From: Thozetella sp. PMI_491
Lineage: Eukaryota > Ascomycota > Sordariomycetes > Chaetosphaeriales > Chaetosphaeriaceae
NCBI GenBank assembly: GCA_021432635.1
Contig: MU270097.1
Coordinates: 124,001 to 188,000, forward strand
Direction of reading: 5' to 3'
Length of the DNA: 64,000 nt
Positions within the stretch are counted from its first letter, which is position 1, and each line of letters begins with the position of its first letter. Of the stretch, positions 28,262 to 48,469 are shown in pieces. Below the pieces are notes generated by a model. It was not told the DNA's origin, made no database searches, and was given only the letters and a program-made list of their open reading frames with translations. The position numbers and the translations under genes were made by a program.

Positions 28262-30189
28262 TTATGCCTGGTACGTCGAGGCAGACACGTTTCCACCACG
28301 GCCGGTCCAGTTGACGTGGATGTCCTGGCCCTCGGGGTACTTGGCGCTGGCGAACTGGGGCTTGATGCGGAAGGTGTGGGCACCGAAGAAGTCACGCTGG
28401 GCCTGGAGGAGGTTGGCTGGGAGGTCGGCCGTCCGGTAGCCGTCGAACCACGAGAGGGCGGTGGAGAAGGCAGGGGTCGGGATACCAAGAGCGGCGCCCT
28501 TGATGACGACGTCACGCCAGCCGGGCTGGGCCTTGTGGATGGCCTTGTTGAAGAAGTCGTCAAAGAGGAGGTTCTTGAGGTCGGGGTTCTTGCGGTAGGC
28601 GCCGGTGATGTCCTTGAGGAAGACGGAGCGGATGATGCAGCCGCCACGCCACATGAGGGCGATTGAGGGCTTGTTGAGCTTCCAGCCGTACTCCTTGGCA
28701 GCCTCCTGCATGAGCATGAAGCCCTGGGCGTACGAGATAATCTTGGAGGCGTAGAGGGCCTGCTCAAGGTTGTCAAGGAACTCCTCCTTGCTACCATCGA
28801 AGCTCTGGTTCTTGCCCTCGTAGTGGAGGTAGCCAGCGGCCTCGACACGCTCGGACTTGAGGGCCGAGATGCAACGGCCGAAGACGGCCTCAGCGATCAG
28901 GGTCACGGGCATGCCGAGATCCAGGGCGTTGACGGCAGTCCACTTGCCAGTACCCTTCTGACCGGCGGTGTCGAGGATCTTCTCGACAAGTGCCTTGCCA
29001 TCTTCGTCCTTGAAGACCATGATGTCCTTTGTGATGTCAATGAGGAACGAGTCGAGGACTCCCTTGTTCCACTTGGCGAAGACGGCACCAATCTCGTCGT
29101 GGTCCATGCCGAGACCGCGGCGCATGATGTCGTACGCCTTCATGCGTTCAGGTACGTTAGCAAGTTCGCAGGGCGTAGGCGCCGGTGGCTACACGGGCAA
29201 AGCTTACCTCGCAGATCAGCTGCATATCACCGTACTCGATACCGTTGTGCACCATCTTGACGTAGTGGCCAGCACCGGCGTCACCGACCCACTCGCAGCA
29301 GGCCTCGCCGTCGCTCTTGGCGGCGATGCTCTGGAAGATGTCCTTGATGTGCGGCCAGGCGGCCTCGTGGCCACCGGGCATGAGCGAGGGGCCGAAGCGA
29401 GCACCCTCCTCACCACCAGACACACCAGTGCCGACGAAGAGGAAGCCCTTGCTGGCAAGGTAGTCCGCTCTCCGGTTGGTGTCGGGGAAGTGGGAGTTAC
29501 CACCGTCAATGATGATGTCTCCGCGCTCGAGGAGCGGGATGAGGGTCTCGATCCAGTCATCGACAGCCTTGCCTGCCTGGACGAGGAGCATGACACGGCG
29601 GGGCTTCTTGAGCTTGGAGACAAACTCCTCGGTGGAGTGGGCGCCGACAATGGACATGCCCTTAGCCTCGTTGGCGAGGAAGCGGTCGACCTTGGAGACG
29701 GTACGGTTGAAGGCGGCAATGGTGAAGCCGTGGTCGGCCATGTTCATGATCAGGTTCTGGCCCCTGGACCCGCGGCGTCAGCATCCCCATGGGGCCTGGA
29801 GCAAGAGGAGTGGACAGGGAGACTTACATGACAGCCAGGCCGATGAGGCCGAGATCAGCGCTTGCAACATTGTTAGCATTGCCCTGGGTCTGCGAGGTCC
29901 GAGAGGAAGCAGCCTGCACGCCTTGGCTGATGTTGGCCAGGCGAGCGCTGGAGGTGCACTCAGTAGGGGTATAAAAGGAGGGGAAGGAAACGCCGTGTGG
30001 GCCTGAAAGAAGGGGAAGGCACTGCCTCCAAAGCTCAATCTCATGAGCAGCAGCATGAATCTGGAGTCCCAAGGCCACTCGAGCAAAGGGGAGATGGGTG
30101 GAAGGGGACGACGAAAGTCTCGGGAGGGTACGGACTGAGCACCCAAGGCGGGGAGGTGGGGTAATCGAGACTTACACTGCGCCAGACAT
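28262..30189 (-). CDS. gnd1: 6-phosphogluconate dehydrogenase, decarboxylating
   Basis: This enzyme of the oxidative pentose phosphate pathway converts 6-phosphogluconate and NADP+ to ribulose 5-phosphate, CO2 and NADPH in the cytosol. Four exons, 30189-30176, 29860-29828, 29763-29208 and 29137-28262, give 492 residues, the family's usual length. The product starts [20 protein letters not shown] with the nucleotide-binding loop. It contains [32 protein letters not shown], catalytic Lys185 in [17 protein letters not shown], and [17 protein letters not shown]. The first coding exon is only 14 nt, followed by a 315-bp intron. Introns 1 and 3 end in AAG rather than CAG/TAG; in-frame joining and conserved sequence require both, and each has a CTAAC branch site 12-25 nt upstream. 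Confidence 0.95.
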
Positions 30190-38810: not shown

Positions 38811-41279
38811 ATGGCGGTGCCTCGTAGACACAGCGTCCAAGGCGCCAACGAGAGGATGCGCCAGCAGGCTGGTGGATACCTAGCCATTGAGAACTATGGC
38901 CTGATCGGCAATATGAGAACCTGTGCCATGGCGGGCATGGACGGCAGTGTTGACTTCATGTGCTGGTAAACAGTGTCCCTTACGCTACCGAGCTAGGATT
39001 CTCAGCGCTGAACAAAATTCCGTTAAGGCCAGAGTTCGACTCGCCCTCGGTGTTCTGCCGTCTGCTCGACAAGGACAAGGGAGGCTACTTTAGCATCCAC
39101 CCCTCGCCTGGCCTGTCGTGCACCACCAAGCAGCAGTACCTGCCCTCGTCCAACATACTGCAGACCCGGTATATCCACGAAGATGGCGTGGTTGATTTGG
39201 TCGACTTCTTCCCCCGCCCGAAGAATGCCCACATCCTGGCCAAGGGCCCCAAACAGGGCGTCTACCGCGAAGTGACCAGTGTCCAGGAAGAGCTCAAGCG
39301 GTGGCTAGTGCGTCGTGTCGAGTGCATCCGCGGACAGCTTTCCCTGGGTGCGCGGCCGCTCCTCTCTAGCCCTCAGCTGCGGGACTTGCTAACAACCTTA
39401 ATCAGACGTCGAGGTCTTCCCTGCTTTCGGATATGCCCAGGAGCCTCACACCACCACGGTTCTGCAGAGCGTGCACGAGGCAGGCTGCCCGCATAGCAAG
39501 ACGGTGACTTTCCATAGCCGCGATGTTAAGCTTCAGCTCGATGTGATCATCGACCGGGGTGAGGACGACACGGGTACCCATTGCCCCCAGGTTATCTTCC
39601 AGAAGGTACAGGTCCCGGGCATGCTCGGCGAGGGTGTCATTGCCAAAATTGTGGTAGCAGAGGGGCAAGCGATCTCGTTTGTCCTCCGCGACGACATCCC
39701 CGACCATGTCACACCAACCATCACCAGTGCCGTCCTGGACCTGCAACAGCACGACACCCAGACCTATTGGTACAACTGGATCTCCAAGAACAAGTACAAG
39801 GGTCGATGGCGCGAGGTGGTAGCTCGCAGCCTCATGATTCTGAAGTTGATGACCTATGAGCCCACGGGAGCGATCATCGCCGCGCCTACCTTCTCCATCC
39901 CAGAGGAGATAGGCGGTGTTCGGTACGTTGCCGTATTCGCCTCTCCATCCCCTAATCCAACCCAACGCAATGTAAAAGACTAGTCGCTGACCTAGTGAAT
40001 AGGAACTGTACGTATTTCAGAGTTAAACCCCCCCCCCCCCCCCCCCTCTTCAACTCCATAGTTAGCCTAGCTATCCAGTTGGCCGGAGCCTAGCTGAGCC
40101 ACGCACGACTGTACGGTCACAGCCACGGTCAAGATAATCGCTGACTCTGGATGGACAGGGGATTACAGATTCAGTTGGATTCGCGACTCCTCGTTTACTA
40201 TATACATTTTGTTGCGTCTCGGGTTCAGCGAGGAAGCCGATGCGTATATGAACTTCATCAGCGAACGCTTCATCCACTCGCGAGGCCCGGACGGCGCCCT
40301 GCCCATCATGTTTACCATTAGGGGAGAAACCGAAATCCCGGAGATGGAATTGACGCATCTTGACGGCTACCGCGGGAGCAAGCCGGTGCGGATCGGCAAT
40401 GGTGCCGCCTTCCACCAGCAGTTCGACATATATGGCGAGCTGATGGATGCCATCTACCTGTACAACAAGTACGGCAAGCCCATCAACTGGGATCAGTGGT
40501 GCTCAGTCAGAGAGATGCTTAATTATGTTCTCACCATCATGAACGAACCGGATATGAGCATCTGGGAGGTGCGCAACAACAAGCAGCACTTTACGTATTC
40601 CAAGATCATGCTCTGGGTGGCCTTCGACCGCGGCCTACGGCTCGCCGACAAGCGCAACTTTCCCTGCCCAAACAGGGCCAAATGGCTGGAAGCAAGGGAT
40701 AATCTCTATGAGGAAATTATGGAAAAGGGATACAACACGGAGATGAAGTGCTTCGTACAGAGCTACGAGAACTCGACCATGCTCGACTCGTCCATCCTCA
40801 TCGCCCCGCTCGTCTTCTTCATCTCGCCGAACGACCCCCGGTTTGTGAACACCATGGACCGCATTCTGCTCCCGCCCGAGAAGGGAGGCCTGACAAGCAC
40901 CGGGTTGGTGTATCGGTACGACACGGAACTGTCCGAGGACGGTAAGGCGACACCCCTATATGCCTGCTTTTTGAGGTGACTGTGGCTGACCTGGGGACGC
41001 GGGGGACTAGGAGTCGGTGGCCGCGAGGGCGCCTTCAGCATGTGCACATTCTGGCTGGTCGAAGCCATGACTCGGGCGAGTGTGTACGAGCCCAAATATC
41101 TAGTCCGCGCCATCAACCTCTTCGAGAACATGCTGTCGTACTCTAACCATCTGATGATGTTCTCGGAGGAAATCTCGCGCAGCGGCGAGCAGCTCGGCAA
41201 CACACCCCAGGCCTTCAGCCATCTAGCCCTGATCAGTGCCGCTTTCAACCTCGATAGAGCGTCCGAGCGGAAGTACTAG
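38811..41279 (+). CDS. GH15 family glycosidase, glucoamylase/trehalase type (intracellular)
   Basis: Six exons, 38811-38965, 39028-39347, 39406-39922, 40003-40007, 40159-40941 and 41011-41279, give 2049 nt and 682 residues. The N-terminal domain ([40 protein letters not shown]) is the TreH-type domain found before GH15 modules. The catalytic part has [16 protein letters not shown] (about 331), [34 protein letters not shown] with likely acid Glu469, [12 protein letters not shown], and [14 protein letters not shown] with likely base Glu652. The family hydrolyses alpha-glucosidic bonds; members of this subgroup include trehalases. No signal peptide is seen, so it is probably intracellular. Oddities are a 5-nt microexon, an AAG acceptor in intron 1 (39027) and a 19-C run in intron 4. 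Confidence 0.92.
40003..40007 (+). other. 5-nt microexon of the GH15 gene
   Basis: GAACT is bounded by a TAG acceptor (40000-40002) and a GTACGT donor (40008). It joins CG of exon 3 to GG of exon 5 and supplies CGG-AAC-TGG, i.e. Arg-Asn-Trp of the conserved RNWDYR motif. Skipping it would remove Asn and shift the frame by five bases. Confidence 0.85.
40028..40046 (+). repeat. 19-C homopolymer inside GH15 intron 4
   Basis: An uninterrupted C run 20 bp after the donor that follows the microexon, in an intron (151 bp) longer than its neighbours. Confidence 0.85.
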
Positions 41280-41533: not shown

Positions 41534-42241
41534 TCATGAAAAATCCATCTCGTCCCCTATCGTTCGGTCTCCTAGGGAGCTTAAGCCTGAGCTCTGTGGC
41601 CTCGACTGGGTGTCTCCCTCGGGCTCTCGAGGCTCCGGTGTGCTCTCGTTGGCTTTCCTGAGTGTTTGTTCCCAGGAGCTGATGCTAGTGTACTGTCCAC
41701 CTTCCACTAGAATGTCTCCGTGCTCGTTTGGCCTGCCGAGAAGGGTGCCTAGGAACTTGGAATCGTCGTCTGTCTTGCTGTGCTTCTTTTTCAGAGCTTA
41801 CGACGCTGTCAGTCTCTGCGCCTTACATGTACTGCGATACTACCTACCGTCGAGATAGTCATTCGCCTCGTCGTTCCCATCCAGTGCAATTCTCTTGATC
41901 TCTTTGTTCAGAGCTTGCTCTGCCCACTCAAGGAAGATCTCAAGCCCTCGCAGGTCCTCGATGCCAGAAAACTCTTGCTCCAGCTCCGGCCGCTCCGGCA
42001 GTAGTGCGCCTGCATGTTGCAGGGCCATGCGCACGTCGACGATGTCGGGCGTAAGGTCTTCCGATCCGTTGTGCGCTGCGTAGAGAGCCGTGACCTCGCA
42101 GAGGCGGAAGAGGTAACGTGCGGCTAGGTCAGTAAGAGAGTCGAGGACGGCCGTTTTCGCGCCATGATAGCCTGTCGCCCGTAGAATCTGGAGTATTGCG
42201 GGGCGAAGGAGCGCGTGGTAGAGAGATAGTGGGGGTGTCAT
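41534..42241 (-). CDS. Bromodomain-associated histone-fold protein, TFIID TAF3/TAF8-like
   Basis: Exons 42241-41848 and 41796-41534 join over a 51-bp intron to 218 residues. The start MTPPLSLYHALLRPAILQIL opens a Bromo_TP histone fold (about residues 4-75) that continues ATGYHGAKTAVLDSLTDLAA and EVTALYAAHNG. This fold pairs with TAF10-like partners in TFIID. A short charged tail includes EDLRGLEIFLEWAEQALNKE and ends GDEMDFS. Size and layout fit a short fungal TAF3 or TAF8; I cannot choose between them. The intron ends in AAG (41799-41797); the CAG 9 nt upstream would bring in a stop codon. The start is chosen at the first ATG, since the upstream in-frame stretch has no ATG. It is divergent from TAF7. 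Confidence 0.82.
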
Positions 42242-42710
42242 CGTAGAGAAGAGTGTCGTGGAGAGAAGTGTGGTTGAAAGTCTTTCGTCTTGGTCGCGCA
42301 CGTGGAGCTCTGCTATAGCTGAACCGGGGCGAGCGAGTCTCGGAGTCGCGCTCAGATCTGTCGCTTGGGGTTCGAGGTAGATTCAAATTTCCAGAGAAAC
42401 CCCATACTGCGGGCGCAGACGACAGGTATTGCTAGCGACCGGCTCCTCTTGCTCTTCGAGTTCGAGGCCTTCACTTCACGTTCGCGATTGGAAGGGGCTG
42501 CCGAGAGTTGAACAAGAGAAAAGAGTGGGTCTTGTGTAGAAAGCGCGGGCGACAACGAACATGCACGGACCAGCAAGAGCCGCCTCTACCCCCGATTCTA
42601 TATATCAAGCTTCGCTTACCACTCAACTACACTTGCGATACCCGGCCAAATTTTGTCCGTCTCACGCGTCGCCGCCCTCGTCAGAGGCGGCCTTCAGCAA
42701 TACCGCCAAG
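42242..42710. promoter_or_regulatory. Shared divergent promoter region of two TFIID-type genes
   Basis: 469 bp separate the start codons of the histone-fold gene (-) and TAF7 (+). No clear TATA box is seen near either start. The TAF7 frame is open back to an ATG at 42561, so the translated part of this region may be smaller if that start is used. Confidence 0.6.
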
Positions 42711-44321
42711 ATGGATCCCCCCAAACCCATTCGCCCAAAGATCACATTGAAGAAACCCAGCATCAGCTCACTCTCCGCTGGCGCGCCGACCCCAGACAGT
42801 GCCAGTGTTCCCCAGTCGCCGGCTCCTCAGACTCCTTCCGGCGGTCCAGCAAAGATCCGACTCGTTAGCAAGTCCCAGCCCGCAACTCCTGCAGATGGCG
42901 TGCCGCCTTCCCTGATGGGCCCCCCCCCTCCTCCAAGTGCCTCTGCCGAGTCCATCGCAGCATCCCCTGCCAACCCTCTCAAAATCGTTACAAAGGCCGG
43001 TCGCGTCGCAAAACCTTCATCGAAGAAACGCGCTAAGGCCGCGGCCGCTCTCGAGAACCGCGGTGATGGCGCTGGAAGTGGAGCGGGCGATGAGCCCAAG
43101 GCGAAGAAAATTAAGGTTCTCAAGACCCCGACTGCGACGTCCCGCGCCCCTTTGGTCAGGCTCAAGCATCGTCACGGCGGGCAGGTCCCGCAGCGCCCCC
43201 TTGGCGACGGCTACGATTCGGAGGCAGAGGATAGGGAAGTAGATCCCGTGATCGAGGAGCAGCTCATCTTTCGGATGATGCCCGGCGAGCACTGTGACTA
43301 TATTCGCAACGCGATCAAAGACAAAACCCTCGGCCTGTCGAGACAGCAACACGGAGCTGATGTCTCCATGAAGTGGATAGACAATGAGTCGCGCAGGTGC
43401 ATGATCACAGTACAAGGCCAGCCATATGCAGCTGTGCTGGTGGACCTGCCTACTATCACAGAAGGCACGAAGACGTGGGACAAGAAAGCCTTCGTCAAGT
43501 CAGCCGACATCTGCCAGATGCTTCTTGTCTTTGCCAAGGTGACCAGCGAACAGGAAGCGAAGTCCATCCCCCTTCCCAGTACGATTAAGAACGGCTACCA
43601 GTGGCCTCACGGACTCACTCCCCCTATGCACGACTGCCGCAATCGTCGGTTCCGAAAACGCCTGAGCAAGCTAGAAATTCAGAACAAGGATGCTGAAGTT
43701 GAGCGATTGCTGGCAGCCGACAAGAGCGCCGTTGCCTCCAGGTGGGAAATGATTGACGACAGGCAAGACGATGCGATTATGGAGGAATCCGGAGAAGAGT
43801 ACGATGATGAAGACGCCGATGCTGACGCGTACGGCGATGAGGTCGACTACTTTAGCGGCGCAGTCCATAGTCTCGAGGACCACGGTTTGGACGATGACAT
43901 GGTTGCAGAGCTCGAGGCCGAGTTCATGAATGCCGAGGACACTCCAATGGAGGATTTCGAGACACCTGCTGGAGGTCTCGAAGGCGTCACTCCCATGACG
44001 GCCAACACTGGGACGCCGGCCGCACAGGCCGAGAGCGGGGTGGACGCAGACGGCGACGATGAGTCGGGAGAAGATGATGACGAGGATGAAGAAGGCGAGG
44101 ATGGTGACGTGGACGACGGCGACGATGAAGACAGGCACGACGAGGTTGCTGGCGTCCGTGTCGAGATCGCCAATATGCGGAAGAAGCTGGCCATTGCCCA
44201 AGATCAGTTGTCCAAGAGTGTGCAGCCCATCATGCGCAAGCGGATCGAGGGCAACATCAAGAATATACGGTCCGAGCTGGAGCTGAAGAAATCGTCGATC
44301 GGCGACACGAGCGAGGACTAG
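42711..44321 (+). CDS. taf7: Transcription initiation factor TFIID subunit 7 (TAF7)
   Basis: A single exon of 536 residues from ATG 42711 (MDPPKPIRPKITLKK), which gives the better start; an in-frame ATG at 42561 would add 50 residues of leader-like sequence. After a Pro/Ser-rich head, the TAFII55 N-terminal domain spans about residues 178-330: EEQLIFRMMPGEHCDYIRNA, AAVLVDLPTITEGTKTWDKK, KSADICQMLLVF, NGYQWPHGLTPPMHDCRNRR. A long acidic region and a C-terminal coiled coil (VEIANMRKKLAIAQDQLSKS) follow. TAF7 binds TAF1 in TFIID and restrains its activity before transcription starts. The product is nuclear. Its divergent neighbour also looks like a TFIID subunit. Confidence 0.93.
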   Translation: MDPPKPIRPKITLKKPSISSLSAGAPTPDSASVPQSPAPQTPSGGPAKIRLVSKSQPATPADGVPPSLMGPPPPPSASAESIAASPANPLKIVTKAGRVAKPSSKKRAKAAAALENRGDGAGSGAGDEPKAKKIKVLKTPTATSRAPLVRLKHRHGGQVPQRPLGDGYDSEAEDREVDPVIEEQLIFRMMPGEHCDYIRNAIKDKTLGLSRQQHGADVSMKWIDNESRRCMITVQGQPYAAVLVDLPTITEGTKTWDKKAFVKSADICQMLLVFAKVTSEQEAKSIPLPSTIKNGYQWPHGLTPPMHDCRNRRFRKRLSKLEIQNKDAEVERLLAADKSAVASRWEMIDDRQDDAIMEESGEEYDDEDADADAYGDEVDYFSGAVHSLEDHGLDDDMVAELEAEFMNAEDTPMEDFETPAGGLEGVTPMTANTGTPAAQAESGVDADGDDESGEDDDEDEEGEDGDVDDGDDEDRHDEVAGVRVEIANMRKKLAIAQDQLSKSVQPIMRKRIEGNIKNIRSELELKKSSIGDTSED

Positions 44322-46980: not shown

Positions 46981-48469
46981 ATGGGTAAATCAAAGGAGCT
47001 CAAGGCGGCCAAGGCCACCAAGGTCACCAAGGCCAAAGCCCCCGTCGAGGTCAAGAAGGCTGTCGCCGAGCCTGTCAAGCCTACCAAGGCGCAGAAGAAG
47101 TCCAAGCGTGACGAGTCTTCTGATGATGACAGCGAGGACGAGTCCGAGGAGGAGAACTCGGACGACGACTCGGACGACAGCGCCGAAGATGATTCTTCGT
47201 CTGACGACGACTCGGACGCTTCCGAGGATGAGAAGAAGCCGGTTGCCAACGGCGTCAATGGCAAGGCCAAGACTAACGGAGCTGAGACCTCCGACTCGTC
47301 TGACTCGTCTGATGATGAGGATGATGAGGACGAGAAGCCGGCTGCCAAGGCGAACGGTGTGAACGGCAAGGCTAAGGCCGACGAGAGTGTACGCATACCA
47401 CCGTGACGTGTGATGACATTTTCATACCATCTTGCTAACATCCTATCGCCAGTCCGAGGAGGATGATGACGATGATGACGATGATAGCTCGGACGACTCC
47501 GAGGACTCTGACTCCGAGGAGAAGTCCGAAGACGCCGCCCCTGCTCCCTCCAAGAAGCGGAAGGCCGAGGAGGAGGCTCAGGAGACCCCGGTTAAGAAGG
47601 CCAAGACGACTGAGGATAAGAGCGCCACCCTCTGGGTCGGCAACCTTGGCTGGGGCGTTGATGACGACCGCCTGTTCGAGGAGTTTAAGAGCTTCGGTGA
47701 GGTGGTCAGCGCCCGTGTGGTGACCGATAGGGACTCGGGCAGGTCTCGTGGCTTCGGCTACGTCGACTTCGGCGATCCCGAGTCTGCCGAGAAGGCTTAC
47801 AATGCCATGAACGGCACTCATGTTGATGGTCGGGAGCTCCGCCTCGATTTCGCCTCGAAGCGGGCTGACTCGACCCCGGGCAACAACGACCGCGCTGGTG
47901 ACCGCGCGAAGAAGTATGGCGACAGCGTTAGCGCCGAGAGCGACACCTTGTTCGTCGGCAACATTCCTTTCTCTGCCGACGAGGAGGCTATATCGGCCTT
48001 CTTCAACGAAGCGGCTCCTGTGAAGAGCCTCCGCCTGCCTACGGACATGTGAGTTGATCCTTCGTACTAGCCATCAGGTGCATTGCTAACGGCTTCGCTC
48101 AGGGAGACCCAACGTCCCAAGGGCTTTGGCTATGTGACGTTCGAGTCAGTCGAGGACGCGAAGACTGCCTTCCAGCAGCTTAACGGAGCTGATTTGAATG
48201 GTCGTGCCGTGCGACTTGACTACGCTCAGGCCCGTGACAACAACGGAGGCGGCCGTGGTGGTGGTGGTGGCGGTTTCGGCGGCCGCGGTGGCGGTCGGGG
48301 TGGCCGTGGTGGTGGCTTCGGCGGTGGCCGTGGAGGTGGCGGCTTCGGTGGCGGCCGTGGAGGCGGCGGCTTCGGCGGCGGCCGTGGAGGCGGCCGTGGA
48401 GGTGGCCGTGGTGGTTTCGGCGGTGGCCGCGGTGGTGGCGGCTTCCAGGGCAAGAAGACCACGTTCTAA
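46981..48469 (+). CDS. Nucleolin-like nucleolar protein (NSR1/Gar2 type)
   Basis: Three exons, 46981-47388, 47453-48048 and 48103-48469, give 456 residues; introns are 64 and 54 bp. The layout is that of nucleolin: a basic start (MGKSKELKAAKATKV), acidic Ser/Asp blocks alternating with Lys-rich segments (residues 40-170), RRM1 at about 193-268 (TLWVGNLGWG, SRGFGYVDF), RRM2 at about 300-375 (TLFVGNIPFS, PKGFGYVTF), and a C-terminal RGG domain (384-450) ending FQGKKTTF. Proteins of this family act in pre-rRNA processing and small-subunit assembly in the nucleolus. The RGG part is a near-tandem GGRGGGGF repeat at DNA level and may vary in length between strains. Confidence 0.93.

Follow-up and report, generated by a model that had tools for sequence, protein, structure and literature searches.

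RESULTS

Gene structure

The window, that is, the whole 64,000-nt stretch of DNA analysed here, carries a GH15 gene at 38811-41279 on the forward strand. Among its Pfam-matched neighbours are genes for an SWI/SNF Ssr4 protein, a TAF7-like TFIID subunit, a SIT4-associated protein, 6-phosphogluconate dehydrogenase (6PGD) and mitochondrial ribosomal L37, a set in keeping with a filamentous ascomycete. In the window, none of the Rfam families scored as high as its gathering threshold, and ARAGORN, run with the bacterial code, returned no tRNA there.

Six exons of the GH15 gene, once joined, give 2049 nt, or 682 codons plus a stop, with no inner stop. Exon 1 (38811-38965; all parts of the gene are on the forward strand) opens with an ATG at 38811 and joins in frame to exon 2 (39028-39347), yielding the joint peptide DFMCWPEFDSPS, which is identical in three aligned Pseudomonas homologues. 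The intervening intron 1 (38966-39027; 62 nt, GTAAAC...AAG) lacks the CTRAY branch pattern and contains GCTGAAC; its AAG acceptor is demanded by the conserved CWPEF peptide. After intron 2 (39348-39405; 58 nt, GTGCGC...CAG), exon 3 (39406-39922) ends in GGT GTT CG, directly before a GTACGT. Intron 3 (39923-40002; 80 nt) reads GTACGT...GCTGAC-CTAGTGAA-TAG, with its branch A at 39990. The next five bases, GAACT (40003-40007), are flanked by this TAG and a second GTACGT and constitute the putative microexon 4. Intron 4 (40008-40158; 151 nt) reads GTACGT...GCTGAC-TCTGGATGGA-CAG and includes 19 consecutive C (40028-40046). Exon 5 (40159-40941) follows this CAG and begins GG GAT TAC AGA, with GGGATTACAGA at its start; intron 5 (40942-41010; 69 nt, GTAAGG...TAG) and exon 6 (41011-41279, with the TAG stop at 41277-41279) complete the gene. 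Across exons 3, 4 and 5 the predicted mRNA reads ...GGTGTTCG-GAACT-GGGATTAC, so that GAACT supplies the final base of Arg331, the complete Asn332 codon and the opening base of Trp333 within an RNWDYR motif. Rebuilding the gene in this way returned the coordinates, boundaries and length that an earlier note on this DNA had proposed. It also bore out that note's view that GAACT completes Arg-Asn-Trp while the frame stays open; skipping the exon leaves one surplus base.

Enzyme family and bacterial homologues

The joined protein matches PF00723 with an E value of 3.3e-73 and 247.5 bits (cut-off, 22), over profile positions 4 to 426 of 427 and residues 294 to 671, in agreement with the GH15 assignment made earlier; PF19291 is matched near the N terminus (E value of 5.8e-13). 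Glu469 (in IWE) and Glu646/Glu647, which may be the general acid and base, are identical in all four rows of an alignment of the joined protein with three Pseudomonas proteins. The best NCBIfam names were trehalases, at scores well under their cut-offs, and the archaeal trehalase equivalogs TreH1 and TreH2 were missed (344 versus 820 bits and 308 versus 1000 bits, respectively); trehalase identity is thus only a lead. With the single sequence as the query, no solved structure was matched at an E value of 0.001. A four-sequence profile reached five distinct solved sequences, annotated as GH15-related protein or as isomaltose glucohydrolase (best E value, 0.00029), in alignments that begin at YR-YAWLRD and leave RNW uncovered; isomaltose glucohydrolase (5z3d and others) is matched at YAWLRD. 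Dextran dextrinase, which is homologous to GH15 enzymes and has a solved structure, has Tyr535, Trp540, Arg542 and Asp543 among the residues of subsite -1, according to the accessible part of the report (PMC12446779). By comparison, Trp339-Ile-Arg341-Asp342 of the joined protein look like the W-x-R-D of the subsite -1 wall in solved GH15-type enzymes, and Tyr335 would be the equivalent of Tyr535 of dextran dextrinase. The residues made by the microexon stand six to eight positions before Trp339.

Since the bacterial homologues are intronless, they are suited to show which peptide is expected at the joint. A scan of prokaryote genomes found three Pseudomonas loci, whose proteins are 44, 45 and 43% identical to the joined protein in the alignment. 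One of these Pseudomonas genes was then used as the query against 200 genomes from its phylum, and 32 of them had matches; 44 matches were listed, of which 30 came with a locus and the other 14 lie outside the comparison. With loci from the other searches added, 36 loci were compared. They stand for 32 distinct genes, as L004 and L008 repeat L001, L006 repeats L002, and L005 repeats L003. The joint is free of gaps in all 36 rows; 33 of them, equivalent to 29 of the 32 distinct bacterial genes, read RNWDYR. The exceptions are two RTWDYR (L023 and L032) and one KNYDYR (L022). The bacterial homologues therefore agree with the earlier expectation that RNWDYR is the peptide to be restored. Among the viral contigs scanned, there were no relatives.

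The same data bear on whether the motif is truly broken, as it would be in a decaying pseudogene or through a sequence error. The odd exon and the C run in the next intron might hint at this, but nothing else does: the 2049-nt frame is open, the PF00723 match is near-complete, GC content at third codon positions is 0.769 versus 0.548 in the introns, and the C run lies within intron 4, where it leaves the frame untouched. We consider decay or error very improbable.

Alternative joins

We tried joins between 39840 and a fixed codon at 40170, allowing GT or GC as the donor and AG as the acceptor, with a minimum intron length of 20 nt. Among 421 single-intron joins in this interval, 22 were open and in frame, 18 of which kept DYRFSW, and none gave RNWDYR, R.WDYR or WDYR; retained introns meet stops. 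This bears out the earlier assertion that neither direct joining nor read-through restores the motif. When two introns were allowed, separated by an exon of 1 to 40 nt, 10 of 10,471 joins produced RNWDYRFSW, always with the donor at 40008 and the acceptor at 40158. Nine of these ten alter residues ahead of the motif, and GAACT alone preserves IGGVRNWDYR. The GAACT join is thus the sole solution among the joins tried that yields GGVRNWDYRFSW with its neighbours unaltered, and both of its donors are GTACGT.

One in-frame join without the microexon runs from a GTGTTC donor at 39916 to the acceptor at 40158 (intron 39916-40158, forward strand), skipping GAACT and deleting Val-Arg-Asn-Trp to give ...EEIGG-DYRFSW. 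Such an intron would keep the frame, without a premature stop, in a protein of 678 residues. Nevertheless, its donor is weak and stands seven bases upstream of a GTACGT, its 243 nt compare with 58 to 151 nt for the 12 introns listed, the residues that it deletes are ungapped in 36 of 36 aligned loci, and it would make the GAACT arrangement a coincidence. We regard this as the true structure with very little conviction. Because the join is in frame, a faulty gene model may show no frameshift, and a gene finder could choose the 39916 donor.

Six of seven mis-splicings tested lead to a premature stop. Skipping of the microexon places it at residue 385 (position 40319), retention of intron 3, whether or not intron 4 is kept too, at residue 351, retention of intron 4 or use of an inner donor at 40111 at residue 361, and use of a nearer AG in intron 3 (39994-39995) at residue 333. 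The seventh product is the 678-residue one from the 39916 donor. As all six stops precede the last intron (40942-41010), decay of the mis-spliced mRNA is plausible.

Splice signals and chance of the arrangement

Introns 3 and 4 share a GTACGT donor, a GCTGAC branch element and a YAG acceptor, and the distance from the branch A to the intron end is 12 nt in intron 3 and 14 nt in intron 4. For reference we used ten other introns in the window, hand-picked, three from the GH15 gene and seven from neighbouring genes. A CTRAY element is present in nine of these, 13 to 30 nt from the end (the exception is intron 1), and a GTACGT donor in none. The lack of GTACGT in the other introns speaks against the microexon model, and so does the length of intron 4, which exceeds that of every other intron among the 12 listed (58 to 151 nt). 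Two of the ten hand-picked introns end in AAG rather than YAG, namely, 38966-39027 on the forward strand and a 6PGD intron within 29050-29330 on the reverse strand, where the acceptor is demanded by the peptide ICEAYDIM; an AAG acceptor is also printed for an A. nidulans stwintron in the part of PMC5639578 available to us.

The nearer AG of intron 3, at 39994-39995, is only 1 nt past GCTGAC, below the minimum of 4 nt from branch element to AG given in the accessible text of PMC6616335. Use of the AG at 40001-40002, and hence an exon start at 40003, is therefore expected. A further point against the model is that, by a nearest-pair rule in the same partial source, GTACGG at 40111 could compete as a donor within intron 4; the resulting short intron (40111-40158, forward strand; 48 nt) would leave a stop at 40091.

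The microexon might also begin earlier. Intron 3 has a further branch-like sequence, CCTAAT, 23 nt before an AG at 39978, and an acceptor there would lengthen the exon to 29 nt (39979-40007), so that Arg and Asn are separated by Leu-Val-Ala-Asp-Leu-Val-Asn-Arg while the NWDYR end is kept. This exon would be in frame and would leave both GTACGT donors unchanged, and the 23-nt spacing falls within the 13- to 30-nt range of the other introns. Against this, it would contain the GCTGAC element, would need an AAG acceptor and would add eight residues at a point where all 36 aligned loci are free of insertions; we judge it highly unlikely.

Two close introns that both start with GTACGT, in what is apparently a filamentous ascomycete, also call to mind a spliceosomal twin intron (stwintron) with no exon between introns 3 and 4. 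Yet removal of all 236 bases would throw the frame off and lose the motif, and the two introns are not clear copies of each other. Since the five bases must stay in the mRNA for both frame and motif, we do not read introns 3 and 4 as a stwintron, an arrangement that we consider exceedingly improbable. Whether the introns arose as copies was considered separately: besides GTACGT they share AAGA-TA-TCGCTGAC near the end, with a local score of 20, which was reached by 104 of 2000 shuffles and equalled by the score of intron 3 against intron 5, so that an origin by duplication is unsupported. A repeat search (at least 28 nt, seed 14) detected no repeats in introns 3 and 4; its three direct families and one inverted pair lie elsewhere.

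To gauge the role of chance, the 236-base stretch that separates exon 3 from exon 5 was shuffled with dinucleotides preserved and the first 6 and last 3 bases fixed. The pattern AG-GAAYT-GT appeared in 21 of 20,000 shuffles, and YAG-GAAYT-GTRNGT, with consensus splice sites, in none of 20,000; the GAAYT pattern with an upstream branch element was likewise absent from all 20,000. On both strands of the window, AG-GAAYT-GT and YAG-GAAYT-GTRNGT each occur once, at 40003-40007. Unspecific tiny exons are common by comparison: AG, any five bases and GT were found in 1099 of 2000 shuffles, and YAG, 1 to 30 bases and GTRNGT in 352 of 2000 (three in the real stretch). Consequently, the weight is carried by the fit to the motif, not by mere spacing.

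DISCUSSION

On this evidence, GAACT at 40003-40007 very probably serves as a coding exon of just 5 nt in a filamentous-fungus gene for a GH15 enzyme, trehalase- or glucoamylase-like. Like a spliceosomal microexon, it is a tiny AG/GT-bounded stretch with a donor, a branch element and an acceptor on both flanking introns, and its bases are needed for the frame and for conserved residues. Introns 3 and 4 would each be recognized by intron definition, through their own GTACGT, GCTGAC and YAG, and would be removed one after the other, as factors at 3' and 5' sites five bases apart could hardly occupy them together. The joined mRNA would then read Arg-Asn-Trp-Asp-Tyr-Arg just before Trp-Ile-Arg-Asp. 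From the DNA sequence we infer splicing of the microexon, its order, constitutive use of the exon and enzyme activity of the product.

Tiny fungal exons are already known, and GAACT is a further case of a known phenomenon. The comparisons below follow the accessible portions of the papers cited. Fusarium CYP621A P450 genes have a 1-nt exon in the conserved PKG motif, reported with 20 orthologues and 18 RNA reads; it was found through a base absent from the joined exons by comparison with the intronless CYP621B1, and only one of the annotated transcripts is correct at this exon (PMC12940212). In the gene described here, too, frame and motif depend on a tiny exon concealed within a conserved stretch. 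The differences are that the CYP621A exon has 1 nt, belongs to a P450 and has RNA-read support, whereas GAACT has 5 nt, belongs to a GH15 gene and is predicted from sequence. A one-sentence account of Dactylellina haptotyla lipS, a duplicated gene with more than 10 introns, mentions 3-nt exons (PMC5639578). This is likewise a hydrolase gene of a filamentous ascomycete with exons of a few bases; however, 3 nt keep the frame, while the 5-nt GAACT is needed for it. With fungal exons of 1 nt (PMC12940212) and 3 nt (PMC5639578) in print, GAACT leaves the known limit of exon size unchanged.

Other precedents are larger. In Phanerochaete chrysosporium, P450 microexons encode 2 to 10 amino acids, the shortest being 6 bp (PMC1184071), and an 8-nt I-helix exon, also in a conserved motif, is described in PMC12940212. 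The Phanerochaete chrysosporium genes resemble ours as fungal enzyme genes with tiny exons, but they are basidiomycete P450s, unlike a GH15 gene. A microexon of Trichoderma virens Xlr2 is needed for a conserved domain, was missed in the first annotation and acts as a glucose-dependent switch (PMC11121469); the requirement of a filamentous-fungus microexon for a conserved domain is common to both cases, whereas glucose-dependent inclusion is a feature of Xlr2. Finally, Aspergillus niger rtnA has a 15-nt exon II beside a stwintron (PMC6616335), again a small exon between close introns in an ascomycete with intron definition, but exon II can be skipped in frame, whereas skipping of GAACT breaks the frame. 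Our literature search, from which subscription journals were mostly out of scope, turned up no fungal GH15 gene described as having a microexon, and nothing on RNWDYR or on a 5-nt fungal exon.

Anchored by its motif, GAACT cleanly illustrates how an exon can be too small for the usual gene finders, and it suggests a test of annotation: fungal GH15 models in which Arg-Asn-Trp is missing ahead of Asp-Tyr-Arg deserve a second look. The case is also relevant to the splicing, under intron definition, of introns with only five bases between them. A more speculative, and in our view unlikely, proposal is that the 5-nt exon is conserved in the GH15 orthologues of a fungal lineage and serves as a control point, with inclusion giving active enzyme, and skipping, retention of either intron or use of the GTACGG donor giving a premature stop and probable mRNA decay. 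Many annotated fungal orthologues would on that account lack Arg-Asn-Trp.

Some other features of the window are recorded here for completeness. A Bromo_TP histone-fold gene at 41843-42382 on the reverse strand, with a TAF9-like match below the cut-off, stands head to head with the TAF7-like (TAFII55) gene at 42540-44318 on the forward strand; the two are possibly subunits of TFIID or SAGA with a common promoter region. A repeat rich in glycine and arginine codons (RGG-like) occupies 48236-48445. The window also has long homopolymers, either real or an effect of assembly: 47 G at 2099-2145, 26 G at 2208-2233 and the 19 C of intron 4.
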